Below are positions 9,044 to 52,614 of a stretch of DNA of 64,000 nt, piece by piece. The position numbers were made by a program, and so were the translations under genes. Positions within the stretch are counted from its first letter, which is position 1; every line of letters starts with the position of its first letter. This stretch comes from a virus: IMG/VR virus record IMGVR_UViG_3300013132_000023, positions 1-64,000 of that record. One strand, written 5' to 3'. The notes beneath the pieces were generated by a model. It made no database searches, was not told where the DNA came from, and saw only the letters and a program-made list of their open reading frames with translations.

Positions 9044-9053
9044 AATACTCTAA
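9044..9053 (-). promoter_or_regulatory. Late-type promoter element TTAGAGTATT (minus strand)
   Basis: Reading on the minus strand gives TTAGAGTATT, identical to the element at 18633-18642 and one base from the TTAGTGTATT consensus of the other sites. It sits 66 bases before the metalloprotease start and points toward it. No -35 hexamer at usual spacing is present. Confidence 0.6.
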
Positions 9054-9066
9054 GCTGACAAGCTTA
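9051..9066. repeat. Inverted repeat TAAGCT-GACA-AGCTTA
   Basis: A perfect six-base inverted repeat with a four-base centre overlaps the edge of the minus-strand late-type element. It could be an operator half-site pair or a small hairpin; AT-rich and short, so chance cannot be excluded. Confidence 0.35.
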
Positions 9067-9213
9067 AAAACGGGAAAAACATTCGTTGGTGTACTATCTA
9101 GTACTGTGCCCCCAAGTAAGGGGACACATGCTAAGCGATTCGTTATCCTTCAATCACAAACACCCTACAAGGGATGTTGTGACATCAAACAGGTATTCTG
9201 TCTTCAACTTTTC

Positions 9214-9504
9214 ATGGAAACCATCATTACATCAGAAAAAGACCTCAGGGAGTACAAACATCCCTTTTCGCATAACGTGAGGATGGTACATTTTAAGATG
9301 GTTGGGATTGGTCCTAATACGTTGGCACAAGCAGAGTATCTAGGTGCTAAAGTTTGCGATATTGCCACTATTCAACCTGGATATTTCGTCATTAGCGGCG
9401 ATGGTAACGGCTTGCGACAAGCAATGCATGATTTAGTAGATCGTTTTTGTAACGCCCAGGAGGGGAAACATGAGTCAGAGAATTCGAAGAGCACAGGATC
9501 GTAA
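9214..9504 (+). CDS. Unknown protein (96 aa), first plus-strand gene
   Basis: Start chosen at METIITSEKDLREYKHP; codons upstream read as non-protein-like sequence. No good ribosome site precedes it, so a later ATG (for example MVHFKMVGIG at 9280, preceded by GAGG) is possible. The product has an alpha/beta character (KMVGIGPNTLAQAEYLGAKV). No family recognised. Its end overlaps the next gene by 35 bases. Confidence 0.55.
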   Translation: METIITSEKDLREYKHPFSHNVRMVHFKMVGIGPNTLAQAEYLGAKVCDIATIQPGYFVISGDGNGLRQAMHDLVDRFCNAQEGKHESENSKSTGS

Positions 9505-9763
9505 GAACGAGGGTGCAACAATGGCAACTGGTGGTCACGTCGTTCATCATGATCGTGGTGAAACTCCCGTTGTTCGTACGCCACCGTCAAAGGCGACTGG
9601 AGATGTGTCCGGTAATCCGGCTGGTTTTGCACAAGCTTCTCCTTTTTTCAAGAAACTAGAACAAGAGAAGCCTAAGTCAAAAGCCGATGAGAAAAAGGCA
9701 ATTGCCGAGGCTTCGACGCCTGTAAAAGAAGACGAGAAGAAGAAAGAACAAGAAAAAGCTTAA
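9470..9763 (+). CDS. Charged, probably disordered protein (97 aa)
   Basis: Begins MSQRIRRAQDRKNEGATMAT after a strong AGGAGG-type ribosome site. The second half is almost entirely Lys, Glu, Ala and Pro (KPKSKADEKKAIAE and so on), predicted disordered or single helix. No domain. It lies just before the sigma-like gene with 4 bases between them. A nucleic-acid- or polymerase-binding adaptor would fit the composition and place, but this is speculative. Confidence 0.65.
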   Translation: MSQRIRRAQDRKNEGATMATGGHVVHHDRGETPVVRTPPSKATGDVSGNPAGFAQASPFFKKLEQEKPKSKADEKKAIAEASTPVKEDEKKKEQEKA

Positions 9764-9767: not shown

Positions 9768-10358
9768 ATGTCACTAGCCGTAGCACCAAGCGGTACTCCC
9801 ACCTACGACGATGTGGCAGGTGTCATTGAAGCTTTAGTACACACAGAGGGGCGAAAATATCCGATCCCTGGGATGGATTTTGAAGATACAGCCCAGGAAA
9901 TTAGGCTTGAATGCGTGCGTGTGTTGAAGTTTTACGACCCAACTCGTATTGGTCCCTCTCCATATAAATTTCTTCAAACGTGTGTACGGAACTTTCTGTA
10001 CAATCAACGTAGAGGAATTTGGGTTCCGAATAACCCTCCGTGCGTTAGATGTCCGTTATGGGACAAAGTACGCAAGACGTGTACTATTGAAGAAGTGGGA
10101 TGCGACAAGATTGTAGAGTATCGAGAGAACATGTCTATTAAGGCAGATCTTAAGAAGCCGTCTACTATTGAAAGTGACGTTCTAGATTCGATTCAAGAAG
10201 CGGAATTTGAAGCAATGCTTTTAGATCAAAGTATACGTCAGGCATTGCCTTTAAACTTGATTGAATACTACGAACGCATGATTATTGGTGAATATATTCC
10301 GGTTCGCATTAAACACCAGATTCGTGACATTGTAACGAGCATAATCAACAATGCCTAA
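9768..10358 (+). CDS. Late sigma-like factor (gp55-type, sigma region 2) with Cys4 insert
   Basis: A 196-residue protein. Residues 38-82 resemble sigma-70 region 2: an acidic FEDTAQEIRLECVRVLKFYDP helix that would face the beta-prime clamp helices, followed by the FLQTCVRNFLYNQRR helix that in sigma factors contacts the -10 element. Next comes Cys92-x2-Cys95, Cys105 and Cys112, a probable zinc-binding insert seen in other phage sigma-like proteins. The C-terminal part is too short for a full region 4, as in T4 gp55 (185 residues), which recognises a single -10-like late promoter. I infer that it directs host RNA polymerase to the TTAGTGTATT elements of this window. Its end overlaps the next gene by 8 bases. 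Confidence 0.75.
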   Translation: MSLAVAPSGTPTYDDVAGVIEALVHTEGRKYPIPGMDFEDTAQEIRLECVRVLKFYDPTRIGPSPYKFLQTCVRNFLYNQRRGIWVPNNPPCVRCPLWDKVRKTCTIEEVGCDKIVEYRENMSIKADLKKPSTIESDVLDSIQEAEFEAMLLDQSIRQALPLNLIEYYERMIIGEYIPVRIKHQIRDIVTSIINNA

Positions 10359-11130
10359 GTCATTTTCAGAAGACCAACGCAATATGGTACGTGAACTTGC
10401 TTCACAGGGCAAGTCACATATGGACATTGCAACGATAATGTCTGAGCGTTTTCCCGCCGATTGGAATGCCAAAAACGCAAATCGTACGGTTGCTCGTATC
10501 ATTCGTGAAGCACAAACTCCTGAAGTCATTCAAGAGAAAGCACTGCCTAAAACGTTAGACGAAATGACTCGCGAAGAGCGTTCTCGTTTTATTGAATCTA
10601 GAATACAGATTACGCCTCGTTTTCGCATGGCGTTTCAGAACTTTACTAACACAGACAAAGACGTATTCATCGATGAATACATGAACGTGGTTCGTTCTAC
10701 AGAAACGCTAACCGAGGTTGAAGAACAAGCGTTGTTTGCTTCAATCCTTGAACTTATTCTAGCTTTTCAAGCCCTCAATCGTAAAGAGAAAGAGGAGACT
10801 TGGCGTGATCAGTCTATGAGCGGTGAGATTCCTGATACTGATCCACGCTATAGACGCATTGTAGACGACAAGTACCAACGCGAATACGATCAGCACATGA
10901 AGCTTTATCAGAAAGGCATGAGCGAATTGAAGATGTCCCGTAAGGACAGACTAAAAGAAGTACGTTCTCACAAACAGACGCTTGTTGATTTGGCAGAGGA
11001 ACTTTCAACCAAAAACGCACAATCCGAAGTAGCAGACGAAATTGAACGTTTGTCAAAACTAAAAGATGGCGAACTTAAGCGTCTGTTAGACCTGGGACAT
11101 ATACATGGTGTGTTTGAGGAATACCTATGA
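10351..11130 (+). CDS. HTH/coiled-coil protein, possible small terminase subunit
   Basis: A 259-residue protein with an N-terminal helix-turn-helix (about residues 8-50: RELASQGKSHMDIATIMSER, then a second helix with NRTVARIIREA) and a long, charged, probably coiled-coil C-terminal half. This architecture and its location some genes before the large terminase fit a small terminase subunit, which recognises phage DNA for packaging. A transcription factor working with the neighbouring sigma-like protein is the main alternative. No enzymatic motif is visible. Confidence 0.5.
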   Translation: MPKSFSEDQRNMVRELASQGKSHMDIATIMSERFPADWNAKNANRTVARIIREAQTPEVIQEKALPKTLDEMTREERSRFIESRIQITPRFRMAFQNFTNTDKDVFIDEYMNVVRSTETLTEVEEQALFASILELILAFQALNRKEKEETWRDQSMSGEIPDTDPRYRRIVDDKYQREYDQHMKLYQKGMSELKMSRKDRLKEVRSHKQTLVDLAEELSTKNAQSEVADEIERLSKLKDGELKRLLDLGHIHGVFEEYL

Positions 11131-13632: not shown

Positions 13633-14118
13633 ATGGTCAAAGAAAAACCAATACTGATTGTTGACACCAGAGAGAAGACCCCTTGGGACTTTGAAAGTGA
13701 TGATGCTTTCTCTGGTGTCTTGTACACCAAGCTTGATGGTGGTGATTACAGCATTCAGGGCATGGAAAACATCTTGGTTGTCGAACGTAAGGCAACTGTA
13801 GATGAATTGTTTGTGAATTTTACTAAGGATAGAGAACGTATTCGGGCTGAGTTTGAAAGACTCAAAGACCATAAGTTTAGGATTATTGTTATCGAAGAGA
13901 CGTGCGATGACGTTATGAATCCATACAAGTATTACGTAAACAAAAAGGGTATTAATAAGCGAAGTCCAAAAATGCCGGTTGCTGTTGTTGCGTCTGGTCT
14001 CACTAACTTGATGCTTGAACACAACGCAATGGTTATTTTTGGCGGCAGTAGGGCACAGGCTATGGTGCGTGGTATTCTGTTGCGTGCTTGGGAATTGCAT
14101 CAAGCAGGTAAACTATGA
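13633..14118 (+). CDS. ERCC4-type nuclease
   Basis: A 161-residue single-domain nuclease of the ERCC4 (XPF/Mus81) superfamily. Motifs in order: Asp11 in LIVDTREKTPWDF, Gly37-Asp38-Tyr-Ser40, and Glu51-Arg52-Lys53 in VVERKA, which form the GDX(n)ERKX(3)D-like active site. These enzymes cut branched or flap DNA. The gene overlaps the large-terminase gene as ATGA, so a role in resolving branched replication products before or during packaging is plausible, like endonuclease VII in T4. The preceding 18 codons in frame belong to overlap with the upstream gene and are not included. Confidence 0.82.
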   Translation: MVKEKPILIVDTREKTPWDFESDDAFSGVLYTKLDGGDYSIQGMENILVVERKATVDELFVNFTKDRERIRAEFERLKDHKFRIIVIEETCDDVMNPYKYYVNKKGINKRSPKMPVAVVASGLTNLMLEHNAMVIFGGSRAQAMVRGILLRAWELHQAGKL

Positions 14119-16157
14119 AGCCGTCTGAGATTCGTAAAATCCGGGGTACACCCTGGAATACTACATGGAGTAGCGATGACGTTCAGGACATTTTTTCTGA
14201 ATGTGGTCCGTTTCATGGATTATACCACATGGCATCATTCAATCTTGCTTGGTTTATTGAAAAGGTGTTCAATAACCAACAAGGCAAACCATTGCGTCTT
14301 GAATCGTTTCAACAGATTATGCTAGATCTTCTATGGAACAAAAAGTTCCCTATGATTCTCGCAACTCGTGGTGCCGGTAAGACATTTATTTTGGCATTGT
14401 ACGCTCTAATGCGAGCCCTTCTTGTTCCTGGTTCTAAGATCGTTATTGTAGGTGCTGGCTTTCGTCAAGCTAAGTTGGTTTTTAAGTACATTGAACAATT
14501 GTACGAATCAAGTCCATTAGTTAAAGAAGCAATCTCACAATGGGGCGGTCCTAAGTACGGTTCTGATGCGGCGACTCTTCGCGTTGGTTTGTCGTCTATC
14601 CAGGCTATTCCTATTGGAGACGGGGAAAAGATCCGTGGTTTGCGTGCTACTGTTTTGATTGCTGACGAATTCGCCTCTATTCCAGAAGACATCTTTGATA
14701 TCGTTATTGCACCATTTACCGCCGTTCACATGAATCCTGCTGAACGTGCTGCTCAAAAACGTTTTGTTGGTCGTTTAAAAGAGCTTGGTGCTGATGATCA
14801 ACTAATCAAAGCTATTGAAAATACACAAGGATTTGGTAACCAGATTGTTATCTCTGGTACGCCAAGCTACAAACACAATCACTTCTATAGACGTTATTGT
14901 GTCTATATGGCTTTCTTGAAGTCTAAAGGCGATGCTGGTCGCCTTAAGCGTGCCCTTGAAGAGCAGCAACTTCAAAGTACTGGTCGATGGCAAGAGATTG
15001 ACGAAGACGACATTAAGCATGCTGAAACAACGTGGAGGCAATATGCTGTTTATCAATTGCCGTACACTGCTTTGCCAGAAGGATTCATGGAAGAAGACAT
15101 CATTCGTACTTCTCGTGCATCTTATCCTGGTCATCGTTTTGCGATGGAGTTTTTGTCGCAATTTCCTGATGATACTGATGGCTTTATTCGTCGATCTTGG
15201 ATTGATAGATCTACGCCTCGTGGTCCAGAACAAATACCAGTTACGGTGGAGTTGTACGGTGATCCTAGAGCTACATACATTATGGGTGTTGACCCTGCTC
15301 GTTGGAACGATAATCTCGGTATCGTTATTCTTAAACTTACTGAACGCGGTAAAGAATTGGTCTATTGTCAAGCGTGGGACAGAACAGAATTTGGTACTTC
15401 GTCACGCAAGATTCGTGAAATAGTTCAACGATTCAATGTGTCGTATCTTGTTATGGACGCTGGTGGTGGTGGAGAACAGATTCGTGAGTGGTTATGTAAG
15501 AAAGTTGATGACGTAGAGCCTCACGAGTTTATTTGGGTTATTCCTGATCAAATGGAAAAGTACACCGGCGACAAAACCGGCATGGCTGCTCCTGGTCGTA
15601 AGATCTTGGAAATGGTTGACTTTACTCCAGCCTGGATTTCACAAGCGGCTCACGGTGTCGAAGCAGACATTGAGCAGGGTAATATTCTGTTCCCATATCA
15701 CGCAGACGACAAGCAAGCATACGAACAATACATGCGTCATTTTCAGTTAGTCACCATAACTGAATCTGAAAAGCAACGTCTACAACATGATTTATGGGGT
15801 ATGGACGATTGGGAAGCAGAGCAAATGTCTGGTCGCAATGGCGAAAAGATTGTGCCTACTTATGGTGTCATGCAAAACATTGACGAATGTCTCAATGAGA
15901 CATGTGCTATCGTTCGCATGGTAAGCACTAAAGGCACTGAGAGTTTCGAGCTACCCAAACTTTCAGAACAGCCGGAAGGCTTAGACATGCGTCGCCGCGA
16001 CCGTTGGTCGGCTTTGATGCTAGCAAATTACGGAGCTAAGGTGTTTTTGGGTACTGGCCATAAACCCAAACCGCTTGTTGGAATGACCCCTAATAAGCGT
16101 CGTCGTACGTCTTATACACAAAGAGGATCACGCGGGCGTGGGTCCGTGAGGTATTAG
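14115..16157 (+). CDS. terL: Large terminase subunit (packaging ATPase/nuclease)
   Basis: A 680-residue packaging motor. The ATPase domain has Walker A at residues 85-90 (R-GAGKT) and Walker B ending Asp184-Glu185 (VLIADEF); an ISGTP coupling motif follows near residue 249. The RNase H-like nuclease domain shows Asp393 in MGVDPARW and Asp448 in LVMDAGGGG, which bind the catalytic metals that cut the concatemer. It docks on the portal encoded next. The stop codon TAG at 16155-16157 is itself the first part of a late promoter element. Confidence 0.95.
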   Translation: MKPSEIRKIRGTPWNTTWSSDDVQDIFSECGPFHGLYHMASFNLAWFIEKVFNNQQGKPLRLESFQQIMLDLLWNKKFPMILATRGAGKTFILALYALMRALLVPGSKIVIVGAGFRQAKLVFKYIEQLYESSPLVKEAISQWGGPKYGSDAATLRVGLSSIQAIPIGDGEKIRGLRATVLIADEFASIPEDIFDIVIAPFTAVHMNPAERAAQKRFVGRLKELGADDQLIKAIENTQGFGNQIVISGTPSYKHNHFYRRYCVYMAFLKSKGDAGRLKRALEEQQLQSTGRWQEIDEDDIKHAETTWRQYAVYQLPYTALPEGFMEEDIIRTSRASYPGHRFAMEFLSQFPDDTDGFIRRSWIDRSTPRGPEQIPVTVELYGDPRATYIMGVDPARWNDNLGIVILKLTERGKELVYCQAWDRTEFGTSSRKIREIVQRFNVSYLVMDAGGGGEQIREWLCKKVDDVEPHEFIWVIPDQMEKYTGDKTGMAAPGRKILEMVDFTPAWISQAAHGVEADIEQGNILFPYHADDKQAYEQYMRHFQLVTITESEKQRLQHDLWGMDDWEAEQMSGRNGEKIVPTYGVMQNIDECLNETCAIVRMVSTKGTESFELPKLSEQPEGLDMRRRDRWSALMLANYGAKVFLGTGHKPKPLVGMTPNKRRRTSYTQRGSRGRGSVRY

Positions 16158-16163
16158 TGTATT
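16155..16163 (+). promoter_or_regulatory. Late promoter element ATTAGTGTATTC
   Basis: TAGTGTATT preceded by T, 51 bases before the portal start; its TAG is the terminase stop codon. One of nine copies of the TTAG(T/A)GTATT element before virion-type genes; no -35 hexamer is seen. Confidence 0.75.
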
Positions 16164-16213: not shown

Positions 16214-18631
16214 ATGACTAAAACACGCACTAACGCTGCCACGGTACGTCTTCGTCAGGATACTATCGCTAAAATGGCAGATCCCAACGCGATGCTTGGG
16301 GCGGCTACTCGTGCCAATGGCCCTGATAAGTCTCTGGCTTATTTTTATGGCAACATGGGAGATAGCATTGAGCGTCGTTTTAATGGCGATGGCGGAATGC
16401 TTGGAGAAGGAAATGATGGTTTCCAAGGAATCATGGGGGCCGGTAGTTCGTGGCAGGCACAGGGGTTTGGCAACTACTTTGGAAGTGGCTTACTAAACGG
16501 CTTTGGTCGTATGAATTCAGGAGCCCAGGGCGGGACGGGCGGCGGTTTTACGTACTTGCGTCGTTTTTCGTCTAATGCGGCTTTCAATCATTCTCTTATC
16601 GCACAATGCATGATGGCTTATTTAGGCTATGGCGTTGTTCGCAATATCATTGATTTGTATTCTGACTTTGCTACCGAGGGGCTTGAAATTGAGCACCCCG
16701 ACGAGAGCGTGCGTAACTTCTATCGTACATGGGCTACAAAAGTTAAGCTTCGTGATCGTGTGCATTGCATGTTTCTCAATTTGTTCGTTGCTGGAAACGT
16801 CTTCATTCATCGCCGTTGGGCGTCGCTTTCAAACGAAGAAAAGCGTGCCATGAAGCGTTCTAAGTCAGCAGAGAACGTTAAAGATATGTTAGTGATTCGC
16901 GGCAACTCTCGCGATACGACAATTGAAGGGCGTGAAACTGGATTCATCGATTGGTTTTTAAGCCAGAAGGGTGAAATCAATTTGGCCGACGACAGTCAAA
17001 ATGGCAAGGCTATTGCCGAAGCCCCTCCTGCTCCGTCAGAAGAATACACTCCTGAAAATCTTCAAAAGAGAATTCCGTGGGGTTACACGTTCCTGAATCC
17101 CCTGCAAATGGAAATTCGTGGTCGTAAGCTTCGTGGCGATAGTTACTGGATTATGGCCATTGATAAACGTGATACACTTGACATGGCTCGTGGTCTTGGT
17201 ATGCGTAGTTCTTTTAACCAAGAGCTTGGTACTACTGAAGTAAATCTGCCTCGCGAATTCTTGAGTCGCATTCAGTCTTACCAAGGGCCGGGTGCCGGAT
17301 ATTCCGCTGAGGTTAAATTATCGAGAGAAGAATTGATTGTTGTTCAAGCTCCCGGTAAATGGGACTGGTTTGACTGGGCGGTACCTTTCTGCTATCCAGC
17401 CTTGAAGTCGCTTGCATTCAAAGATTGCTTGCGTAACATGGAAATGAAGGCATGTCAGTCTGTTATCAATTCTATCTTCCTTTTCAAGCTTGGTAACATT
17501 GAAAAGGGTATGCCAGCAGAAGATGAACACTTTGAGCGTCTTGCTGATATGTTGCAAATGCCTGGACAGGCTCTTAATATTTTGTGGAATGAGGCTATTG
17601 AAGCAGAAGTAATTCAGGCTGATGTTAAGGGGATTTTTGATACTGGCAAACATGATTCCGTTGACAAGGACATTTTGACGGCACTTGGTGTCCCAGAAGT
17701 TTTGATTGGTGGCAAGGGTAGTAATTTTTCAAACTCTTACGTTGCTGTTGCGACCGTTCTTGAACGTTTAGAGTCATATCGTGAACAGGTGTACGATTGG
17801 CTTTTAAATGAAGTGAAAATTATTGCTGATGCAATGGGTTTTCAAAAGCTTCCTGACATTAAGTTTGGTCGTACAAGTCTTAAGGACGAGAAGGGCTATC
17901 AAGCCTTTTTAACTGGACTTTATGATCGTGGTATTCTGTCTGGTGATACGCTACTTCGTGAAGCTGAAACAACTGCGGAAGTTGAAGCTTCGAAGATGAA
18001 AGAAGAAAAGGATAAGTATCGCGAGAAAGATATCTTCGAACCTAAGGGGCCGTATGTTAAGGATCCTAAGTCTCCTGGTGGTTTGGACAAAAAGTCTAAG
18101 CCAAAAACTCCAAATGGACGCCCTCAGAATTCTAGCACTGGTCCAACCGGCAAGCAGGAAAATCCACGTACGCCTACGGGACAAGGGATTGCTGCTTTGC
18201 TGGAAGCCCAGGAGATTATTTCTCGACGCGGACGCATTGCATTGCAATATCTTGAAGACTTTATTAGTGATCGTGTTTTACAAGCTAAGGCACGCGAAAA
18301 TCCTAATCTCAAGAACGTTAAAAATATGCGTGCAGATGAACGTGAGCGTTTAGAGTGGTTGATCTATAACGTTTTCAGCCACATGCCGCCGCCGCAAGAT
18401 GACGAAGTTAAGATGAATGATGACTTCATTATTAACATGCTTCGTTCAGATGCGTGCGAGACCGTTAAAGTAGAAGTGTTTAATCTCTATACTGACAAGG
18501 TAGCTGATTACAGTAAAACGTATAATAAGGCTCCAACACGCGAAATGCGTCGTCAGTTTATGGTTTCTGCATGGACACAACGAGCAATTATGGAACACCT
18601 TGATCAAAAACCTGACATTCTTCGAATGTGA
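16214..18631 (+). CDS. Portal protein
   Basis: An 805-residue protein after the terminase. The region at about residues 125-205 (cysteine-poor, GYGVVRNIIDLYSDFATEGLE, then an amphipathic helix and the GNVFIHR strand) is typical of portal proteins; the region around 390-540 (MKACQSVINSIFLFKLGN, then GVPEVLIGG) matches the clip/stem part. Twelve copies would form the ring through which DNA enters the head. The long Gly/Asn-rich N-terminus and Lys/Pro-rich stretch at about 600-660 are probably disordered. It starts the first late transcription unit. Confidence 0.85.
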   Translation: MTKTRTNAATVRLRQDTIAKMADPNAMLGAATRANGPDKSLAYFYGNMGDSIERRFNGDGGMLGEGNDGFQGIMGAGSSWQAQGFGNYFGSGLLNGFGRMNSGAQGGTGGGFTYLRRFSSNAAFNHSLIAQCMMAYLGYGVVRNIIDLYSDFATEGLEIEHPDESVRNFYRTWATKVKLRDRVHCMFLNLFVAGNVFIHRRWASLSNEEKRAMKRSKSAENVKDMLVIRGNSRDTTIEGRETGFIDWFLSQKGEINLADDSQNGKAIAEAPPAPSEEYTPENLQKRIPWGYTFLNPLQMEIRGRKLRGDSYWIMAIDKRDTLDMARGLGMRSSFNQELGTTEVNLPREFLSRIQSYQGPGAGYSAEVKLSREELIVVQAPGKWDWFDWAVPFCYPALKSLAFKDCLRNMEMKACQSVINSIFLFKLGNIEKGMPAEDEHFERLADMLQMPGQALNILWNEAIEAEVIQADVKGIFDTGKHDSVDKDILTALGVPEVLIGGKGSNFSNSYVAVATVLERLESYREQVYDWLLNEVKIIADAMGFQKLPDIKFGRTSLKDEKGYQAFLTGLYDRGILSGDTLLREAETTAEVEASKMKEEKDKYREKDIFEPKGPYVKDPKSPGGLDKKSKPKTPNGRPQNSSTGPTGKQENPRTPTGQGIAALLEAQEIISRRGRIALQYLEDFISDRVLQAKARENPNLKNVKNMRADERERLEWLIYNVFSHMPPPQDDEVKMNDDFIINMLRSDACETVKVEVFNLYTDKVADYSKTYNKAPTREMRRQFMVSAWTQRAIMEHLDQKPDILRM

Positions 18632-18632: not shown

Positions 18633-18642
18633 TTAGAGTATT
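18633..18642 (+). promoter_or_regulatory. Late promoter element variant TTAGAGTATT
   Basis: Differs from the consensus by one base (A for T), and is identical to the minus-strand copy at 9044-9053. It lies in the short gap after the portal stop, 21 bases before the next start codon, with AAGGAG in between. Confidence 0.6.
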
Positions 18643-18662: not shown

Positions 18663-19565
18663 ATGGACAGAACCAAAGCTATTATCCGTAAAGTGGGTAA
18701 TGAGTTTTGTGTCTTCTCTCATGGTGGTAAGAACCTAGGCTGTTCTACGGATCGCAAAGGTGCAGAAAAACGGCTACGTCAAGTCGAGTATTTTAAGCAC
18801 AAAGGGTCATCAGAAATGAACTACGATAAAGCATTTTCAAACTTCGCTAAAGCTTTGAGTGAAGTTAATCCCATTGAAGTTGGCAAGGCTTCTACTGCAA
18901 CCTCGCCTACTTTAGAGATTAATTCGGAACTGAATGTTTCCGACAATCTTGCAATTGGTAGTATTGCAAGTCGTGCTTCTAGTCGCGTTCTTGATAATAA
19001 AGATCATTTCCCGGTGATTACTGAGACTCAGGCACGTTCAAGCATGGCTCGTGTGCTTCAATTGACCGAGACTCCTGCGTGGTACAGTGGAACTATTGCG
19101 GAGCTTCGACAAGAAGTCTACGCTGGCATCGTTATACTACATCCTGATATCGAACTCAATGTTCGCGTGCCGGTTGAGCTGGCCGTGGCTCTCTCTGACG
19201 GACAAACGCCTTGTCATGTTTCTGAAAAAACAATTAAGAATCCTGCTGACGTTGCCAAAAATCAAGTTCCCAGCGTTTCTCGTCGTACGTTGACAAGTGC
19301 TCAGGTTGCAGAGGCTTTAAAGAATGACGATCTTCGCAGTGCAATTGCTGGTCGCTTAATGGAAATTGTAGATCAACACGTTGAACAGCTAAAGACTGCA
19401 AAGAAGGTTGCAACGCAACTATTGAATAGTGGATTAACTTCCGAAGAATTCGATCAATTAAGCACGTTCTTGCAGGAAGGCATTTTGCGTGAAATCATTG
19501 GACGTGGAGCAACTGCTTCTAGAGCGGAAGATCGTCGTCTTGAACTTATCAACAAATTAAAATAA
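18663..19565 (+). CDS. Head-associated protein of unknown role
   Basis: A 300-residue product; start MDRTKAIIRKVGNEFC follows AAGGAG by five bases, while a longer frame reaches back into the portal gene. Residues about 9-45 (FCVFSHGGKNLGCSTDRKG then KRLRQVEYFKH) form a Cys-containing basic motif common at the N-termini of phage head-region proteins. The rest is helical with several Ala/Ser-rich segments. Location between portal and protease suggests a capsid-assembly or internal head protein; no enzyme motif is visible. Confidence 0.65.
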   Translation: MDRTKAIIRKVGNEFCVFSHGGKNLGCSTDRKGAEKRLRQVEYFKHKGSSEMNYDKAFSNFAKALSEVNPIEVGKASTATSPTLEINSELNVSDNLAIGSIASRASSRVLDNKDHFPVITETQARSSMARVLQLTETPAWYSGTIAELRQEVYAGIVILHPDIELNVRVPVELAVALSDGQTPCHVSEKTIKNPADVAKNQVPSVSRRTLTSAQVAEALKNDDLRSAIAGRLMEIVDQHVEQLKTAKKVATQLLNSGLTSEEFDQLSTFLQEGILREIIGRGATASRAEDRRLELINKLK

Positions 19566-21161: not shown

Positions 21162-21183
21162 TGGTCTTTAGTTTATTACCACA

Positions 21184-24595: not shown

Positions 24596-24629
24596 GAGGG
24601 CGGGGGGTCGTAGACCTCTCGCCCTCTTT
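24596..24629 (+). terminator. Intrinsic terminator after capsid gene
   Basis: GAGGGCG (24596-24602) pairs with CGCCCTC (24620-24626) around a loop that can form an inner GGGTC/GACC stem, followed by TTT. A late promoter element begins four bases later, so the capsid unit ends and a new unit starts here. Confidence 0.8.
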
Positions 24630-24632
24630 GCT

Positions 24633-24641
24633 TAGTGTATT
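24633..24641 (+). promoter_or_regulatory. Late promoter element TTAGTGTATTTTT
   Basis: An exact copy of the consensus in noncoding sequence, four bases downstream of a terminator hairpin and 21 bases before the next start codon. It would begin the connector-gene unit. Confidence 0.8.
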
Positions 24642-24661: not shown

Positions 24662-25534
24662 ATGGCTGGAGAAACAAAGGTCTTAACTGTCGGCCAAGCG
24701 TCGTCTGCCCTTGATGTATTTTTGTCTGCTAATGGTGCTGCTGTTAGTGGTAAATATGTTGGGTTTCAGCTTTTTGATGCCTCTAATGTATCTGCTGTTA
24801 GTGGTGTTGCACTTAATCCAAATCTTGGGCAATACGTAGGTTCTGGCATAATTCCAGCCGGATATCAGCTTGGTACGTGGCGAATCAACTGGACGATTGT
24901 CACGTTGGCAAATAATATTGTAACTGCATCGGAACCATTTTGTGTACAAGACGTGAGCGTGACCATTGGTTTCGTTCCTCTTGATGACAAGACGAGTGCG
25001 ATTTACGACGCAGTACGCATCGATATTGGCGATCCGAACGGTCAGGTATTTGATGATGACTTCTTGAAGAGAGTTCTTCAGAAGGCCGTACGTAGACTTA
25101 ACCAACGTCTCGGATTGTCACCCACCTCTAGACCTAAGGGTATTCCTGGGAATTTTGGTGGGCCACGCATTAAAGTGTCTGCTATAGTAGCTGATGTTGA
25201 GAACGGCACTATTACGCCATACAACGATGAAATTTGCGACCTTGTTGTTATGCAAATGGAATTAATTGTTCTTGAAAGTGAAGTTTCAGCACTTAAGAGA
25301 TTAGCAGCCAGTGCTTCATCTGGCCCGTTCGCTAACTTTGTTGCTTCGGCAGCTAATGATGGCGTGTCTGTAACGAATGCTGACGGTGTATCTGTCACTA
25401 TTTCACCGTCACGTTTACAGGTTCGTGCCGACTTACACAAGTTCGACGTGAAGCAACGTCGCGAAGAACTTGAAGGAGCTATTCGTGCTTTCTTGAATCG
25501 CATGACTGGTAACTTTGGCAAAATGGTTTACTAA
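24662..25534 (+). CDS. Head-tail connector/adaptor-type protein
   Basis: A 290-residue protein. The N-terminal 100 residues are an Ig-like beta sandwich (KVLTVGQASSALDVFLSANG, then a LGTWRINWTIVT strand); the rest is helical, with a DEICDLVVMQMELIVLESEV helix at about 195-214 and a long C-terminal helix, resembling gp6/gp15-type head-tail adaptors. Immediately downstream of the major capsid gene, this suits an adaptor that binds below the portal. Its end overlaps the next start by one base. Confidence 0.65.
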   Translation: MAGETKVLTVGQASSALDVFLSANGAAVSGKYVGFQLFDASNVSAVSGVALNPNLGQYVGSGIIPAGYQLGTWRINWTIVTLANNIVTASEPFCVQDVSVTIGFVPLDDKTSAIYDAVRIDIGDPNGQVFDDDFLKRVLQKAVRRLNQRLGLSPTSRPKGIPGNFGGPRIKVSAIVADVENGTITPYNDEICDLVVMQMELIVLESEVSALKRLAASASSGPFANFVASAANDGVSVTNADGVSVTISPSRLQVRADLHKFDVKQRREELEGAIRAFLNRMTGNFGKMVY

Positions 25535-28010: not shown

Positions 28011-28013
28011 GGT

Positions 28014-28022
28014 TAGTGTATT
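28014..28022 (+). promoter_or_regulatory. Late promoter element TTAGTGTATTTAT
   Basis: Exact consensus copy, 77 bases before the tail-tube start. The leader between them can fold: GCAGC (28032-28036) with GCTGC (28048-28052) and a perfect 14-base palindrome TACTTTGCAAAGTA at 28062-28075. Confidence 0.8.
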
Positions 28023-28098: not shown

Positions 28099-29511
28099 AT
28101 GACCAATAACAACCGTGTCTTTTATGCGATTGAACAAGTCGCTATTAAGGATAATGCTGCCCCTCCGACTGGGACAGTGGCATCTGTAAACTCTAGAGAG
28201 TTTGTTACAGGTATCCTTGCATCTGGTGTCGATCAAGTAAATGGCCTGTGGGAAGTTCCGCGTGGTCTTCAGTCGATTGGCATGTCAACTACGTTCAACC
28301 TGGAACAGGTTTTCCAGCTTGGTCAAGTTGAGTTGTACGAGTACTCGGAACGTCAGCCTGACGTTGAAGTCACTATGTCGAAGGCAATCGATGGCAGCAA
28401 GCCATTGTTCTTCATGTTGACCAATCCGGCTGCCGGAAACGATATTGTTGCTCGTACGGCTAACTATCGAGTTGATATTGCTTTACAGATTTATCCAGAT
28501 ACTCAGTTCCGTGCAACAGGCAGACCGCAAGCGATTGTGACTGCTTCTGGTATGTACCTTTCAAACGTATCGTATACCTTCCCTATCGACGGCTTCGTAA
28601 CTGAAGACGTAACCTTGGTTGGTAACGACAAGATTTGGGGTGTCATGGTTGCCGTGTCTGGTGCAACAGCCGGTAACAATGGTGCCAATAGTGCAGAACC
28701 TATTGTTAACTGGCCAGCCGCCGCAAACGGTAGTCATCCGGAAGCTCCGGAAGGTACGCCGTCTGGTGTGTTTGGAAAAGACGGCAATACGTCCGCACTT
28801 GTTGAAGCTGGTGCTCAAGAACTTGCTGGCGGTAGCGACCGTTTCGGTGTTGTCATTGTAGGTTCTGGTATTCAGCGTCGCGAAGAAGTAGACATTCGTC
28901 GCTCAATTTTGCCGACTGACATCCCCGGTGTGATTTCACCTGTTGCTTCTGGTATCGATGCCGCTTACGTAAACGGTGGTTTCGGTGCTCAAGGGCCGGG
29001 TACCCTGAAAGGGGCAGATCAGCGAATTGCAGACGCTAACACGGACTTTATCGCTGAGCATATTCAGAACATCACTGTATCGTTTTCAATTGCTCGTGAC
29101 GACATTTTCGAGCTTGGCTCGAAGCGTCCGTTTGTGAAGACTCCTGCGTTCCCGCTTGAGGCTACTTGTTCGATTGAAGTAATCACTGCCCAAGGTGACT
29201 TGGTTGACGCAACTTCGGATATTGACTGTGGTCCTGACAATACTCAGGAAAACAACACGATCATTATTCGTACGTGTGACGGTCTCCAGGTTGACCTTGG
29301 TGACGCGAACCGCTTGACGAGCGTTGAGCAGGGTGGTGGTGAGGCTGGTGGTGACAACATGACCATCACTTACAACTACTCAAGCTTCAACGTTTTCAAC
29401 GTGTCACATGACTTCTTCCAGCCAAACCACAGAGTGTTGGTATTCGAAACGGGCAGAAGTCGCTTTAACGTTGGAGCACCACGCTTCACACGTAGCGTGT
29501 TAGGCATCTAA
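28099..29511 (+). CDS. Major tail tube protein (probable)
   Basis: A 470-residue beta-rich protein with an optimal GGGAGG ribosome site, its own late promoter and its own terminator, and codon use like the capsid gene; these mark a very abundant virion protein. Its position before the tail assembly and tape measure genes fits the tail tube. No sheath gene accompanies it. Residues about 205-260 are Gly/Ala/Ser-rich and may be a surface domain inserted in the tube fold. Assignment rests on context. Confidence 0.7.
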   Translation: MTNNNRVFYAIEQVAIKDNAAPPTGTVASVNSREFVTGILASGVDQVNGLWEVPRGLQSIGMSTTFNLEQVFQLGQVELYEYSERQPDVEVTMSKAIDGSKPLFFMLTNPAAGNDIVARTANYRVDIALQIYPDTQFRATGRPQAIVTASGMYLSNVSYTFPIDGFVTEDVTLVGNDKIWGVMVAVSGATAGNNGANSAEPIVNWPAAANGSHPEAPEGTPSGVFGKDGNTSALVEAGAQELAGGSDRFGVVIVGSGIQRREEVDIRRSILPTDIPGVISPVASGIDAAYVNGGFGAQGPGTLKGADQRIADANTDFIAEHIQNITVSFSIARDDIFELGSKRPFVKTPAFPLEATCSIEVITAQGDLVDATSDIDCGPDNTQENNTIIIRTCDGLQVDLGDANRLTSVEQGGGEAGGDNMTITYNYSSFNVFNVSHDFFQPNHRVLVFETGRSRFNVGAPRFTRSVLGI

Positions 29512-31329: not shown

Positions 31330-31814
31330 AGACATTAGAAAAACGATTTTGGTCTAAGGTTAATAAAGCTTCTGGTGTGTACGGCGATTCCGGATCTTAT
31401 CCTACCGAATGCTGGCAATGGAAAGGGGCTAAAATGGTTTCTGGCTATGGTCACATGCGTATTCGTGGTAAAAACAAACATTCTCATAGGGTGCTATTTG
31501 ATCTTATGGGAAGATCATTACAAACACACGAGTGCGTATTGCATAAATGTGACAATAGGGCGTGTGTAAATCCAGATCATCTTTTTATTGGTAATCGACA
31601 AGACAACGCTAACGATGCGTACGCAAAAGGCAGAAACAAAGGAGCGATTGGCGATGCAAATTTCAACACCAAGCTAACCGAAGAAAATGTACGTGCTATT
31701 CGTGCATCTATCTCTACTGGTGCGACCCATCAAGCAATGGCCGACAGATTTCATGTTTCAAGAACTAGTATTTCAGCTATCGTTAGGGGCAAGACTTGGC
31801 GACATGTCGTGTAG
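31326..31814 (+). CDS. Free-standing HNH homing endonuclease
   Basis: A 162-residue HNH_3-type endonuclease: His73 in LHKCDNRAC and Asn82/His85 in VNPDHLFIGNRQDNAND form the beta-beta-alpha metal nuclease motif; two Cys pairs may bind a structural zinc. Residues about 109-160 (ANFNTKLTEENVRAIRAS then HQAMADRFHVSRTSISAIV) form an HTH DNA-binding module that gives site specificity. The start overlaps the previous stop as ATGA. It is a mobile element inside the tail operon, not needed for virion assembly. Its TAG stop is the first part of the next late promoter element. Confidence 0.9.
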   Translation: MKTLEKRFWSKVNKASGVYGDSGSYPTECWQWKGAKMVSGYGHMRIRGKNKHSHRVLFDLMGRSLQTHECVLHKCDNRACVNPDHLFIGNRQDNANDAYAKGRNKGAIGDANFNTKLTEENVRAIRASISTGATHQAMADRFHVSRTSISAIVRGKTWRHVV

Positions 31815-31820
31815 TGTATT
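31812..31820 (+). promoter_or_regulatory. Late promoter element GTAGTGTATTAT
   Basis: TAGTGTATT with G rather than T at the position before TAG; 34 bases before the next start codon. Its TAG is the stop codon of the HNH gene. It would drive the tail-assembly and tape measure genes. Confidence 0.7.
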
Positions 31821-40480: not shown

Positions 40481-40664
40481 CAAAATCGAACTTCGTAAGG
40501 TAGACGAACCAGAGTTCAATAGTCTGCCACGCGGCGTACGTCTAATTACAGTAGGCGACAAGCTAGTCTTTGCACGCTGTATTGGCAGTCGCTTTATACC
40601 ACTTTCAGATAGCGAACAAGAAAGGCTTCGCGAGAAGCATATTCAATCAAATGGCGGCGGGTGA
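40467..40664 (+). CDS. Unknown small protein (65 aa)
   Basis: Overlaps the preceding gene by 14 bases and the next one by 14. Starts MTSHDKIELRKVDEPEFNSL; a compact strand-loop-strand core is followed by a Glu/Arg helix and Gly-rich end. Short but protein-like in composition, and it bridges the two paralogous tail genes. No family recognised. Confidence 0.5.
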   Translation: MTSHDKIELRKVDEPEFNSLPRGVRLITVGDKLVFARCIGSRFIPLSDSEQERLREKHIQSNGGG

Positions 40665-41298
40665 TTTTCCTGTAATTCGCGTGTTCGAATGGGATACGAC
40701 AGAGATAGCAAGTCCGGTTGGTAACCGTAACTTGCCGGGTGGTTCGTTTGCCTTCAAGAAAATCGTTGCATCCGGATGTGCCACTGCAAATCCTAATTTT
40801 CCTGGCACCACATCGGGAACGTTATTGTTTGAAAACGTAAGGTTTGATCTTACTAATCCGCCTCTTCCATCACACGTAGCTTCAAGAGTAACCGCTATTA
40901 CGTTTAATTTGGCAGCTAGCGGTACAGCAATTTCAGATCTTAGACTATATCTTGTTACTGATTCTGCTTTTCAAGCAGGACAAGATCAAGGACTAGATAG
41001 GGGTTTTATACAGTATGCTCCTAGTGGTAGTTTGTGGTTACCGAATCTCGTATTGGCGTCTGGGGCAGTTGCTCGCCTACCGTTAACTGTTCCTGTTGCT
41101 CCTAACGTACGTCGCCAAGATGGTGGAAATGCCCTCATTGGACAGGACGATGGTAATTCTTCTGAGTTCATTTACATGAATATCGTTGTTCCTCTAGGAA
41201 CTCCTTTGGGGCCTTTTGGCGTATGTGGTTCTGGTCTTTTAAGACTAGGACTAGTGTTTAACTACTGGTCTAATGCTTTTGTATTAGATCTAGGTTAG
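40651..41298 (+). CDS. Small tail fibre/jelly-roll protein B (215 aa)
   Basis: Start chosen at MAAGDFPVIRVFEWDTTEIA; upstream codons lie in the overlap with the preceding gene and are not protein-like. The ending (PLGTPLGPFGVCGSGLLRL) matches the PIGTYGGAGAGSFRYRL ending of the neighbour at 39920-40480. Predicted beta sandwich. The stop codon TAG is the start of the next late element. Confidence 0.6.
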   Translation: MAAGDFPVIRVFEWDTTEIASPVGNRNLPGGSFAFKKIVASGCATANPNFPGTTSGTLLFENVRFDLTNPPLPSHVASRVTAITFNLAASGTAISDLRLYLVTDSAFQAGQDQGLDRGFIQYAPSGSLWLPNLVLASGAVARLPLTVPVAPNVRRQDGGNALIGQDDGNSSEFIYMNIVVPLGTPLGPFGVCGSGLLRLGLVFNYWSNAFVLDLG

Positions 41299-41304
41299 TG
41301 TATT
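41296..41304 (+). promoter_or_regulatory. Late promoter element TTAGTGTATTC
   Basis: Exact consensus copy whose TAG is the stop codon of the preceding gene. Nine bases downstream a six-base hairpin GAGACA-TCG-TGTCTC (41313-41327) would stand at or near the 5' end of the mRNA; start codon 59 bases after the element. Confidence 0.8.
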
Positions 41305-41362: not shown

Positions 41363-41548
41363 ATGGCAACTTTCAATGCAACTAGCAGCACCAACAACGC
41401 AAACCAAGTTCTTTGGAGCTACAGCACACGCCTAGTCTGGCACACAGACCGTGATGTGTCTGGTACCAGCCGTGGTGGCGAAGTTGAAGCTGTACACAAT
41501 CTTGGTGTTGGTGTGGCTACGGGTGATCCTTTCACCAATCTACTGTGA
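41363..41548 (+). CDS. Very small, separately transcribed virion-region protein (61 aa)
   Basis: Begins MATFNATSSTNNANQVLWSY eight bases after AGGAGG, one of the best ribosome sites here. It has its own late promoter and its own terminator, and uses C-ending codons like the capsid and tube genes, so it should be made in large amounts. Its N-terminus is Asn/Ser/Thr-rich and the rest is beta-like with an Arg/Asp-rich loop. No family recognised. An abundant tail decoration subunit is the best guess. Confidence 0.75.
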   Translation: MATFNATSSTNNANQVLWSYSTRLVWHTDRDVSGTSRGGEVEAVHNLGVGVATGDPFTNLL

Positions 41549-41567
41549 TTTTGGGTAGATGAGCTAA

Positions 41568-41604
41568 CTAAGGTCGGGTGCTTAACATGAGCACCCGACC
41601 TTAG
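41568..41604 (+). terminator. Strong terminator overlapping a late promoter
   Basis: CTAAGGTCGGGTGCT (41568-41582) pairs perfectly over 15 bases with AGCACCCGACCTTAG (41590-41604), loop TAACATG. Instead of a plain T tract, the downstream side runs directly into TGTATTTTTA, so the last four stem bases TTAG are also the first four of a late element. Confidence 0.85.
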
Positions 41605-41610
41605 TGTATT
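41602..41610 (+). promoter_or_regulatory. Late promoter element TTAGTGTATTTTT, fused to terminator
   Basis: Exact consensus copy whose TTAG lies in the descending arm of the terminator stem. 46 bases before the next start codon; the leader contains a TGAG/CTCA and AGCG/CGCT nested hairpin (41619-41644). Confidence 0.8.
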
Positions 41611-41655: not shown

Positions 41656-42132
41656 ATGGCAAAAGCTACTTTTGAACATGAAGGCAATTCTGGCCTTCTA
41701 ACGGTCATTACCCATTTTGACCACACGGCATTTATACCCTGCACCAAAAGGGTAGATGAGGCGTTTCGTCTCGGCGGCACTGCTGTAAACTCTGTTGTCG
41801 TCTATGAAGGCTTAACACTCAACCTTCCATGCTTACCGTCATTTGTTCACTTTCGAGCTTTCCGTACACCGGAAGATTACTTTGATTCCGTTGGTGTAAT
41901 TTCTCAAGAAGATTGGTCAGACTCGGATCGTCATTGTTACGTGACTGAATACTATAGCCTTGATATGGAAGGCAAGAAACCGAGCTGGTTTATCAGTCGT
42001 CAGCCAATTCAAAACGCCAATCATTTGTTCATAAATCTAGACGTTGTTGATGGTGGTGGCAATGTTGTGCGTCGTTATCGTGTATCTCCATTTACCGGAG
42101 AATATCGTGTCATGGAGGGCCTAAATGCCTAA
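41656..42132 (+). CDS. Unknown tail-region protein (158 aa)
   Basis: Starts MAKATFEHEGNSGLLTVITH seven bases after GGAGC. Beta-rich, with Cys, Trp and aromatic loops and a Gly-rich DVVDGGGNVVRRYRV ending. First gene of the fibre unit and overlaps the large LamG protein gene by 8 bases, so probably its partner or chaperone. No family recognised. Confidence 0.6.
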   Translation: MAKATFEHEGNSGLLTVITHFDHTAFIPCTKRVDEAFRLGGTAVNSVVVYEGLTLNLPCLPSFVHFRAFRTPEDYFDSVGVISQEDWSDSDRHCYVTEYYSLDMEGKKPSWFISRQPIQNANHLFINLDVVDGGGNVVRRYRVSPFTGEYRVMEGLNA

Positions 42133-50100: not shown

Positions 50101-50530
50101 CTCAACGTTAGGTGTTGAGCGTGCTATTCTTGGCGTACAAGTTCTTAATGGTTCTGTTTCAATTGGAGATCGTACTACGCTTGCAGCACAAGGAGATGCA
50201 CCTATTGCTCCAGGAGCAAGCAATGGTACTATCTATGTAGCTGGTACTGTTCAAGATTCTGCTGGTGTTACACCAGTTGAGATTGTTGAAGTAAGCCTTG
50301 CAACTACTGTTAATGCTCGTGCAACTTGCAGAATACTTAACAATAATGGTGTTGTTGTTACGTCTGGTACGTTGTATTCAGATGTAGTACCGATTCCATA
50401 TCCACAGTTTGCTACATCTGGTGATCGTGGTTTCTTAACCAGGGCAACCGTTCCAAGCGGAACGCTTGGTGCTACAGCTCAAGTAAATTTCATTCAGATA
50501 GTAAAGCCAGCATTTATTAGGTACGCGTAA
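47162..50530 (+). CDS. Tail tip/hub-type protein (1122 aa)
   Basis: A 1122-residue protein that starts after the LamG gene with three bases between. The first 300 residues (FFFRGRVTHADYT, EDDRRQLRRVKI and DEAITRILQDTGYDWYWN) resemble tail hub proteins of the gp27/VgrG-like type, whose N-terminal barrels close the tail tube. Later parts are beta-rich with many Pro/Gly loops. It would join tube and fibre. The assignment is by segment resemblance and place. Confidence 0.6.
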   Translation: MNILVSNGVVVSGVGVPLNGIAWPSGQFNSNAPGSQLCAFLSSVNATFGFNVTPHSFQTEWIPCGDSCAFHGASGQLPNIGHPLELFVGDFFFRGRVTHADYTTTTGGTVVGITVEDDRRQLRRVKIHTEDLGEDAPSGVVSIARAYRIVNGLNDLNGDPNDPNIREYRRILQFGGTYNQLLTAIQLHFNQGKCSIAVTELPTAEQLESNIGGTIDALRFQFNLTTLDEAITRILQDTGYDWYWNMDAQRLNLINKKVAFDLSENDILDLVSQFGSASGLNETKQLGFGQDVVPDPTRFRVLGGHQEGFINSHLLSPIDGLDTFGLDGHVNKDVKSSGINIVFTPAWSRLTIGFYDADGFYRTYIPTEKELQLALAGIEQWTYFKIYQTDLTTANPPGFALPVDAGSIAAQHPTFQSRLDPVMPLAAFGTGNEASGIRIISNRRDQEQNWVLSFYSRISDHASRHYGRSYVAEGLLFNEASGLFRLVDAAWANVENQVQGYGLSTSGVVISVGSGVYLEDYEINRALGPISPFVTDDFRVRAYCRLPASTVYGPQGDSNPAGFGNWTEDAPPFNPTGSGDHYIPVQLTLVGNRVEDPRSDELYSFEDYPEGTIWCQLPINAGPSGGLRVDPIIRQLSTLVTTNTKLAGSGLTDIINPAIVLNVYDSLSGVAIPVEARSRYGQTYPGQWVLGDLHYERDEDVQLDDQFVPWAYSPEGNQTSLQIMTDRAIRRVQGKIVPRSSSRYADFQQVGLPLLSFDAFAEQGIGPSGRYGEISHGVSELNISFGIEGFGTRYKIQSYFPKFGREAPLGERVRAQLNGVINPIDFTDLSLLNPLPGNPPDPLLPGDSFLPPIFFDREKRAVRVTITDVTNVFTLGSNPATQEEERYRGLDQNSYYKPPFGFSSSNPDFAKGAICIDGFLNVGDEALYHTDEFELPGGNRVLRYFTQGRPFGNGTIVQIQNVNANDLSAYDVTIVDPTTLSTLGVERAILGVQVLNGSVSIGDRTTLAAQGDAPIAPGASNGTIYVAGTVQDSAGVTPVEIVEVSLATTVNARATCRILNNNGVVVTSGTLYSDVVPIPYPQFATSGDRGFLTRATVPSGTLGATAQVNFIQIVKPAFIRYA

Positions 50531-52608
50531 TGGTTATGCAATCAGGTGTAGTGCCGTATGAGTACGCTCATGGCGGCAGAAGATTTGAATCAAAGCCTAT
50601 CCCGTTGGGCTTGTCTGGCATTTTGCTAGAACAGGCACAGTTTGTAATTACTGCTGAAATTAGAAAATGGATTGGTGATTACTCTGACTTGCAGCCATTC
50701 AATGTATACATCAATACGGACGCTTTGCCATCTGGACAATATGAACCAAAGGCTAATGGTACAACCTTAGACAATGCTCTTAATCCGGGGGCAGTTGTTT
50801 TTGTTGATCACATTTTAGAGTGTCGTGCAGCGTTGAATGTACTCTTAAATTTGTACGAAGCTGACACTGACTTAGACACATATCAATATCGTGCAGGGTG
50901 GCTACAAGCTTTGTTTCCTGAAAGTACGAGTGGATTCATAAATGGCTCTGACGATCAAGCATTTTTCACTGGAATTGGGCATTGGCGACATAGAAGACCA
51001 TCAGAAATTGGAATTATCGATTATGTTTCTGATGAAGTTTTAGGAGCATCTGGCGTCTTATACGATATCGATTTTTCAGAAGTGATGTTCAATCCGGCAC
51101 CACATATTGCTGGTTTGGGCTTTGATGAGGCACATGGACTCAGGGTAAACAATACGAATGATACCTTTGCTATTCAACAATACCCGGTCTTTCCAGCTTT
51201 TCAAAAGACCGATGGCTCTATTATTGATTTGAACGGTAGAGAGCCAGCTAATTTGTCTACATACAGAACGTCACACGTATCGTCTGGAGCGTTGCGTTTA
51301 CATGGATACATGCTGAGACCACAGACGAAACTCATGTTATCTAGGGAGCGTACGTTTGGCAGCGATGTAGACTTTACGATTTTTTCCGAAGGTATTCGTG
51401 CTCCATACAATCCTAATGTACCAACAACGCTTGTCTTTATCACTCCAACTTCACAAGGTAGTGGAGTGTATAGAATTGGTGCAGCTAATAGATTCGTAGA
51501 CTTTCCAAATGCAACTATTGAGTCGGGTATTTTTAGTCACTGGCCACCAATAGAAGTGTATTGGCCTTCGGATCATCCAACAAGCTCTACTACCACTACT
51601 GCCAATGGTGGTTATCATGTCTTTAATGACTGCATATGGATGACAGACGTATCCTTGAGTTCGTCTTTTGGCGGTCCTAACTTTGGATATCCTTCTGGTC
51701 TTGCTGTTTTGTCTCCGTATACAGGACACAGAATGTGGCTTCGTTATGCGGATATGACACCAATAGACATTGATGTTTTTGGAGGCATCAATAAGCGTAA
51801 TTGGGGAACTGGAAAAGGACTAGAGCGTGTTTCGTCAAACAACATCTATCGTGTCGCTCCAATAGTTGCAAAATCAACACCTACCCCTACTTCCGGACAG
51901 TTTGTTTTCGGTTGCTACAATGACAATCTAGATCTTGTAACGACTATCACAACAATTTCATCTTCTCCTAATGGTGACAACCTTTTTCCTCTCGGAGGTG
52001 CAGTCATTTCTCTTAGTGATTTTTGGTTTAACGGATCAAACTACTTTGTTGCCAATGCAGAATTCGTTGGTTTTGATTTGTGGAAATTAGACTCTTCGTT
52101 CAGTTACGTCACTAAGTATGTTTTCAATCGTCCTAGTGGAATACATAATGCAAGAGGAGCTTATGTTAATGGTCAAGATGTTCTATTCTATTTTGTACTA
52201 AACAATGCTCCTGGTGATGCAAATTTTGCTACAAGCGGTATATTTCCAATCAACTTTATTGATGAAGGCAGTGATCCGTTTGATAATTCGGCTAATCTTG
52301 GTCCGGTTGGTGAAGCTGAAATTTCGCCAGCGACCGCAAAATACATCAATGGTGCGGCACAACTTGGTGTAGCTCAGACCGCTGAAATCATGGATCTTTT
52401 TGAAGTAACGTCGTCAACTCACGTTGTTCCTGGTGTTTATGCTATCGTTCGTTTTAAGCTAAATACGAATCCCTTTAATGGTGGCGATTTGTATCTTTTA
52501 CGCTTGCAGGAAACCTCTACGGCTTGGGAAATTGTAGCATTGACGAGACTTGAAACTGCCGTCAATTCTTTTATGCCAAGACGTGAATTACTGTATATGG
52601 GCTATTAG
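50530..52608 (+). CDS. Tail fibre-type protein (692 aa)
   Basis: A 692-residue protein overlapping the hub gene by one base. Beta-rich with many Asn/Ser/Gly loops and aromatic pairs, and with a C-terminal part having a propeller-like series of GSNYFVANAEFVGFD-type strands. No enzymatic motif. The order hub, then this, then a small jelly-roll protein suggests a receptor-binding fibre. The stop codon TAG starts the next late element. Confidence 0.6.
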   Translation: MVMQSGVVPYEYAHGGRRFESKPIPLGLSGILLEQAQFVITAEIRKWIGDYSDLQPFNVYINTDALPSGQYEPKANGTTLDNALNPGAVVFVDHILECRAALNVLLNLYEADTDLDTYQYRAGWLQALFPESTSGFINGSDDQAFFTGIGHWRHRRPSEIGIIDYVSDEVLGASGVLYDIDFSEVMFNPAPHIAGLGFDEAHGLRVNNTNDTFAIQQYPVFPAFQKTDGSIIDLNGREPANLSTYRTSHVSSGALRLHGYMLRPQTKLMLSRERTFGSDVDFTIFSEGIRAPYNPNVPTTLVFITPTSQGSGVYRIGAANRFVDFPNATIESGIFSHWPPIEVYWPSDHPTSSTTTTANGGYHVFNDCIWMTDVSLSSSFGGPNFGYPSGLAVLSPYTGHRMWLRYADMTPIDIDVFGGINKRNWGTGKGLERVSSNNIYRVAPIVAKSTPTPTSGQFVFGCYNDNLDLVTTITTISSSPNGDNLFPLGGAVISLSDFWFNGSNYFVANAEFVGFDLWKLDSSFSYVTKYVFNRPSGIHNARGAYVNGQDVLFYFVLNNAPGDANFATSGIFPINFIDEGSDPFDNSANLGPVGEAEISPATAKYINGAAQLGVAQTAEIMDLFEVTSSTHVVPGVYAIVRFKLNTNPFNGGDLYLLRLQETSTAWEIVALTRLETAVNSFMPRRELLYMGY

Positions 52609-52614
52609 TGTATT
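52606..52614 (+). promoter_or_regulatory. Late promoter element ATTAGTGTATTC
   Basis: Consensus TAGTGTATT preceded by T; its TAG is the stop codon of the fibre gene. It lies 88 bases before the next start, with AGGAG in the leader; no clear hairpin was found there. Confidence 0.75.

Follow-up and report, generated by a model that had tools for sequence, protein, structure and literature searches.

A conserved single-element sequence upstream of late-type genes in an uncultivated phage and the sigma-like protein that may read it

Which signals switch on the particle-building genes of an uncultivated phage, and which protein reads them? The question arises from the window analysed here, which covers the initial 64 kb of an IMG/VR virus record of 137,177 bases, the genome of an uncultivated phage, and in which a sequence-only reading had listed nine copies of TTAG(T/A)GTATT as promoters for a phage sigma factor with only region 2. 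As judged from sequence comparison, single-block promoters like TTAGTGTATT most likely switch on these genes and are conserved across the related phage group.

Copies of the element in the window and the genes downstream

Exact matches to TTAGWGTATT number eight in the window, whereas dinucleotide-shuffled sequences gave 0.27 on average and 3 at most. They start at 16154, 18633, 24632, 28013, 41295, 41601 and 52605 on the plus strand and occupy 9044-9053 on the minus strand, and the rest of the record (73 kb) holds zero additional exact copies. The sequence-only reading was therefore right for eight exact copies, which are clear of chance, whereas its ninth (31811-31820, GTAGTGTATT) has one mismatch to TTAGWGTATT. 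Its coordinates stand at 9044 and 18633, but 16155, 24633, 28014, 31812, 41296, 41602 and 52606 should each be lowered by one, and its list lacked a further likely site, the tenth within the window, at 21168. The strand agrees with that of the downstream gene at all sites, as had been claimed, and all eight exact copies are intergenic, in line with the earlier statement that no copy lies within genes. They stand 20-88 bases 5′ of a same-strand start, a slight correction of the 21-89 bases first given, and the spacing from the 31811 element to its downstream gene start is 34 bases. A chance repeat or a codon bias as the source of the element is ruled out by the shuffles and the intergenic placement.

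On the minus strand, TTAGAGTATT (9044..9053) lies 66 nt 5′ of a putative metalloprotease gene (8234-8977), and the element is kept 5′ of the orthologous gene in G004, G002 and G007 (TTAGCGTATT). The metalloprotease named in the sequence-only reading is backed by an HELGH motif, but the Pfam matches are sub-threshold. On the plus strand, TTAGTGTATT (16154..16163) precedes the portal gene (16214-18631), TTAGAGTATT (18633..18642) precedes gene 18663-19565, and TTAGTGTATT is found again 5′ of gene 24662-25534 (24632..24641), of the conserved gene 28099-29511, a putative sheath gene (28013..28022), of gene 41363-41548 (41295..41304), of gene 41656-42132 (41601..41610) and of gene 52703-53368 (52605..52614). 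The mismatched copy at 31811..31820, also on the plus strand, precedes gene 31855-32616. Profile matches assign a virion-type function to just two genes, the portal gene (16214) and the terminase gene (14115) 5′ of it; the remaining downstream genes are in a block with the portal, major head protein and tape measure genes or have no assigned function, so the claim that virion-type genes follow the element holds by profile for the portal and otherwise by block membership at best.

Four of the nine window elements provide, with their TAG, the stop codon of the gene before them (terminase gene 14115-16157, and genes 31290-31814, 40651-41298 and 50530-52608), and the same overlap is seen in 51/147 sites, compared to 11.6% of other intergenic TAGs. 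The element at 24632 is immediately 3′ of an intrinsic-terminator-like hairpin (24596-24626), and the one at 41601 overlaps the stem of another (41567-41605). As just two of the nine sites adjoin or overlap hairpins, we rejected the possibility that the element is a terminator by-product; folding upstream of the sites is modestly enriched (28% below -12 kcal/mol vs 12% of random windows).

When the entire genome of the window phage was scanned with a matrix, extra likely sites appeared at 21168, 76536, 89933, 92211 and 103665 (minus), the last four of which are outside the window and weaker. The probable tenth element, TTAGTTTATT (21168..21177, plus, 13.2 bits), stands 5′ of gene 21184/21190-23037. 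In G007, an exact TTAGTGTATT precedes a 580-aa gene at the matching position in the gene order, apparently the equivalent of the 21184 gene, and in G020 the ortholog of this gene is preceded by TTATCGTATA.

Conservation and anatomy of the element

We recruited about 30 related viral contigs with the major head protein and the terminase as queries. Ten relatives were first read over their whole length, followed by G020 and a phage contig within a Hydrogenophaga MAG. The exact 10-mer is present in 20 of the 21 records searched, and its copies far exceed those of a reversed-pattern control. The sequence-only reading had named an equal frequency inside genes and on random strands as evidence against a promoter, and this was not what 11 genomes showed: intergenic DNA holds 63 of their 69 exact copies, though coding sequence makes up about 88% of the total, and a same-strand start follows within 200 bases for 63 of the 69. 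Since the genes were called by a simple open-reading-frame script, the few copies that fall inside may reflect mis-called starts. Sites of at least 15 bits are distributed likewise (102 outside genes, 15 inside), and matrices with permuted columns gave 24-30 sites, compared to 188 with the real matrix.

The element also follows the genes that it precedes in the window. In 11 relatives, 88 orthologs of these nine genes could be compared, and 68 of them have the element upstream (at most one mismatch), compared to 110/2774 (4%) of other genes, with a Fisher p of ~1e-69, which overstates independence because the genomes are related. It is kept 5′ of the portal gene even where portal identity is 32-34%, and, de novo, TTAGTGTA is the most enriched upstream 8-mer in G000, G005 and G021. 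Among sequenced phages, the head and sheath-like proteins of the window phage had no match, or a distant match to Bacillus phage G, and its terminase is at most ~26% identical to that of distant phages. An open-access literature search for TTAGTGTATT gave no phage promoter paper among the matches listed.

The consensus across relatives is TTAGTGTA[T/A]T, with column frequencies in 186 sites of T.78 T.98 A.99 G.99 T.90 G.95 T.99 A1.0 T.77 T.77, followed by two weak columns (A.54 T.52). Alignment of the nine window sites from -60 to +40 revealed no conserved column outside the 10-mer, and in the 186 sites from 11 genomes there was neither a -35 nor any other conserved column between -45 and -1, which bears out the earlier claim that a -35 is lacking. 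A search for further upstream motifs returned chiefly tRNA and purine-rich words. The sites thus carry a single -10-type element without a -35, as phage single-element promoters do. The element is read as TTAGTG followed by TATTAT, the hexamer lying at -12 to -7.

Promoters of this class would start transcription 6-9 bases past the element. We examined 54 sites with 50 nt or more before the start codon, which places them outside the Shine-Dalgarno zone; there, the expected +1 (position 18) is occupied by G in 56% and by C in 2% (p 6e-7). Over positions 18-20, the frequencies are 0.56/0.52/0.41 for G and 0.02/0.13/0.20 for C, and T occupies position 16 in 50%. The signature is seen with only these distant sites, which rules out the Shine-Dalgarno sequence as its cause. 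This initiator-like G/purine signature, which lies at the distance expected of such promoters, is the best in silico sign that transcripts may start at the sites. The observed sites are very probably real promoter elements.

The candidate reader and the competing explanations

Three sigma-like genes are found in the window phage. sigA (9768..10358, plus strand) encodes a candidate late sigma factor of 196 aa with region 2 (residues ~13-85), a Cys4 motif (C92, C95, C105, C112), a helical C-terminus and no region 4. Its region 2 matches that of sigB in hhalign (probability 95.8% over 80 columns, with no match further on), while the match to Pfam Sigma70_r2 (E 0.0082) is under the curated cut-off. 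The sigA C-terminal 62 residues gave a probability under 1% against sigB and sigC, compared to 93% for region 4 of sigB and sigC matched with one another. An AlphaFold model of moderate quality (pLDDT 76, pTM 0.45) gave zero Foldseek matches at E<=0.001, and its short high-probability or best single-domain matches are to sigma domain 2. sigA had no match in PHROGs, and a sequence search of solved structures returned nothing useful. A candidate phage sigma with region 2 and without region 4 is therefore encoded here, its Pfam match being sub-threshold, and, together with an element that behaves as a single-element promoter, this agrees with the sequence-only idea of a region-2-only sigma.

The Cys4 motif, NNPPCxxC...C...C, follows region 2 and perhaps binds zinc; its four cysteines are invariant in 13 genomes, and sigA is found in all 13 of 13. 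A weak matrix-scan site at 9086 lies 5′ of the sigA operon; in G011, two back-to-back elements occur (59127 minus and 59137 plus), and the plus copy is 5′ of the sigA operon. The gene next to sigA (10351-11130) is likewise conserved, and a helical, DNA-binding-like segment is predicted at the N-terminus of its product.

G020 offers a natural variant. Its sigA is 30% identical, it has zero copies of TTAGTGTAWW, and seven exact copies of TTAWCGTATA are present instead, five of them intergenic, including those 5′ of the portal, sheath-like and 21184-type orthologs. This implies that the element and the sigma changed together in this one lineage.

As for the other subunits, an RNA polymerase beta subunit (PF00562) was detected in none of nine genomes and in all of 14 cellular control genomes, although very divergent phage subunits may escape the search, and hence the core is presumably the host's. 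A search for a T7-type RNA polymerase gave no match, as did its positive control.

These observations can be combined as follows. Late (structural) transcription units would be driven by the single -10-type element TTAGTG-TATTAT, with ten strong leading bases and two weak last ones, and transcription would start ~9 bases (8-10) past the 10-mer. sigA, which is likely to be the reader, would join the host core RNA polymerase and then recognise the element; a -35 would be dispensable because sigA has no region 4, and the Cys4 motif could help to contact the upstream TTAG half. Late timing is inferred from the genes served. To this best overall explanation, late-unit single-element promoters read by sigA with the host core RNA polymerase, we assign a probability of roughly 0.8. 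A bolder version, which we regard as tentative and rather doubtful, is that sigA represents a new architecture, in which region 2 would be followed by a zinc-binding Cys4 module that stands in for regions 3 and 4 and itself reads the upstream TTAG half, and that a stand-alone 10-12 bp code co-evolves with the sigma across unclassified phages; the co-divergence of element and sigma is seen in one genome, G020.

Could another sigma factor read the late promoters? sigB (64272-64931), which is FliA-like and can be aligned with FliA structures over its whole length, and sigC (102757-103269) are clear sigma factors with regions 2 and 4, and the operon that contains sigC has an element of its own (103665, minus). 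However, a sigma with region 4 would normally contact a -35, which the element sites lack. Neither gene was detected in G014 or G020, an absence that is not proven because both contigs may be incomplete, yet G014 keeps TTAGTGTAT(T/A) at late genes and G020 keeps the shifted form. A role of sigB or sigC as the reader is thus improbable.

Even less probable is that the main sigma factor of the host reads the element as an extended -10 promoter of unusual form. The final six positions, TATTAT, are -10-like and have a TG just upstream, but this TG directly adjoins the hexamer, where an extended -10 would have one base in between, and the leading TTAG is 78-99% conserved, compared to 52% for the final T. 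In G020, moreover, bases 4, 5 and 10 changed together. In the Hydrogenophaga MAG (4.7 Mb), six out of six TTAGTGTAWW copies are on the phage contig, which is a weak argument since only ~2 would be expected elsewhere by chance at its high GC.

The binding site of a phage activator or a 5′-leader RNA signal, rather than a core promoter, would account for an element that is always on the sense strand and close to starts, and the DNA-binding-like segment in the neighbour of sigA would suit an activator, but a MotA-like box would require a second conserved -10 downstream, which is not seen, and the purine/G signature at the expected +1 is 3′ of the element, which would then not be transcribed, so this explanation is very unlikely.

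If the reading of sigA and its single-element promoters is true, sequence alone would have yielded the late regulon for a group of uncultivated phages, with one protein to test, and a further sequence class would join the few promoters that work without a -35. The series of relatives, one with an altered element and an altered sigma, would make a sigma-to-DNA recognition code directly testable, and a single-block promoter with a small sigma could serve as an orthogonal expression part.

Comparison with known phage promoters

Phage-encoded sigma-type factors direct temporal classes of genes in SPO1, whose middle and late promoters are bipartite; a second promoter element is thus present in SPO1, unlike in the window phage. 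In phage 7-11, a phage sigma likewise directs the late genes, but gp47 has region 4 and its late promoters are bipartite, GTAAtg-(16)-aCTA (PMC8948821). The motifs of this phage that were predicted computationally (PMC4331800) were superseded by a different experimental consensus (PMC8948821), a precedent that calls for caution with computed promoters such as those of the window phage.

T4 late promoters consist of a single 8-bp TATA box without a -35 and are read by gp55, in which the recognisable sigma part is domain 2 (PMC2988020). The single -10 element, the lack of a -35, a sigma with only domain 2 recognisable and, probably, the service to late genes are shared with the window phage. However, the T4 late element TATAAATA is not the sequence found here, gp55 has no Cys4 motif, and it acts with gp33 and the phage sliding clamp, whereas no match to a DnaN-type clamp (DNA_pol3_beta_3) was found in nine genomes. 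Membership of sigA in the gp55 family is not supported, as its profile comparison with gp55 (E 4e-4 over 48 columns) is no better than that of sigB.

The closest parallel is phiEco32, a 77-kb Kuravirus. Its gp36 has no region 4 and, at middle/late promoters, reads the single, experimentally mapped element tAATGTAtA, with starts 6-8 bp downstream (PMC8948821), so that here, too, a single element without a -35 is paired with a sigma without region 4 (PMC8948821; PMC4331800). Aligned on TGTAT, tAATGTAtA and TAGTGTATT are alike at 7/9 positions, near but distinct, and there are 7 exact copies of AATGTATA in phiEco32. The claim that the element is unlike known ones, which set it against T4 and SPO1 and overlooked phiEco32, is therefore not upheld (PMC8948821). 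The element of the window phage is nevertheless longer, its TTAG being almost invariant, and gp36 lacks the Cys4 motif of sigA. Using gp36 as a single sequence, hhalign aligned sigA with it over only 17 columns (probability 3.5%), and a kinship of sigA to gp36 or gp55 past general sigma-2 similarity was not demonstrable. In summary, since T4 gp55 and phiEco32 gp36 use single-element promoters, the mechanism proposed for the window phage would be of a known kind, and the novelty lies in the element, in a sigma that bears the cysteine motif and in the phage group.

Stop codons and hairpins at the candidate promoter element

In 51 of the 147 sites of the candidate late promoter element TTAGWGTATT in 12 genomes (the window phage and its relatives), the TAG of the element is the stop codon of the upstream gene, compared with 11.6% of the other intergenic TAGs. 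This double use occurs at 16154, 31811, 41295 and 52605 in the window, and at 103665 in the genome. At 24596-24641 and at 41567-41610 in the window, a strong terminator-like hairpin leads straight into a promoter element, and the element at 41601 forms part of the stem of its hairpin. A divergent candidate late promoter also precedes the gene at 8234-8977 in the window (minus strand), which encodes a putative secreted metalloprotease carrying HELGHMFGVPH, with sub-threshold reprolysin/matrixin matches; several relatives keep the element upstream of its ortholog.

Sigma factor genes and the neighbour of sigA

The phage also encodes sigB (genome 64272-64931), a FliA-like sigma factor with region 4, and sigC (genome 102757-103269, minus strand), a further sigma factor with region 4. 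Directly 3′ of the candidate late sigma factor gene sigA lies a gene at 10351-11130 in the window, whose ortholog is found downstream of sigA in 13 of 13 genomes. Its product is predicted to fold with three helices at the N-terminus, followed by long helices, and one ortholog matches phrog_323, 'D5-like' (E 4.5e-5). The gene may encode the small subunit of the terminase, or else a regulator that binds DNA.

tRNA genes and a possible host

The genome contains 26 tRNA genes, at about 116-124.5 kb (minus strand) and at 133 kb, and, away from these, genes for an RNA ligase, a poly(A)/CCA-type nucleotidyltransferase and an RlaP-like enzyme, which together suggest a tRNA supply and repair set. A Hydrogenophaga MAG includes among its binned contigs a related 158-kb phage contig (NZ_JAILWB010000012.1), whose sigA is 72% identical; this points weakly to a Burkholderiales host.
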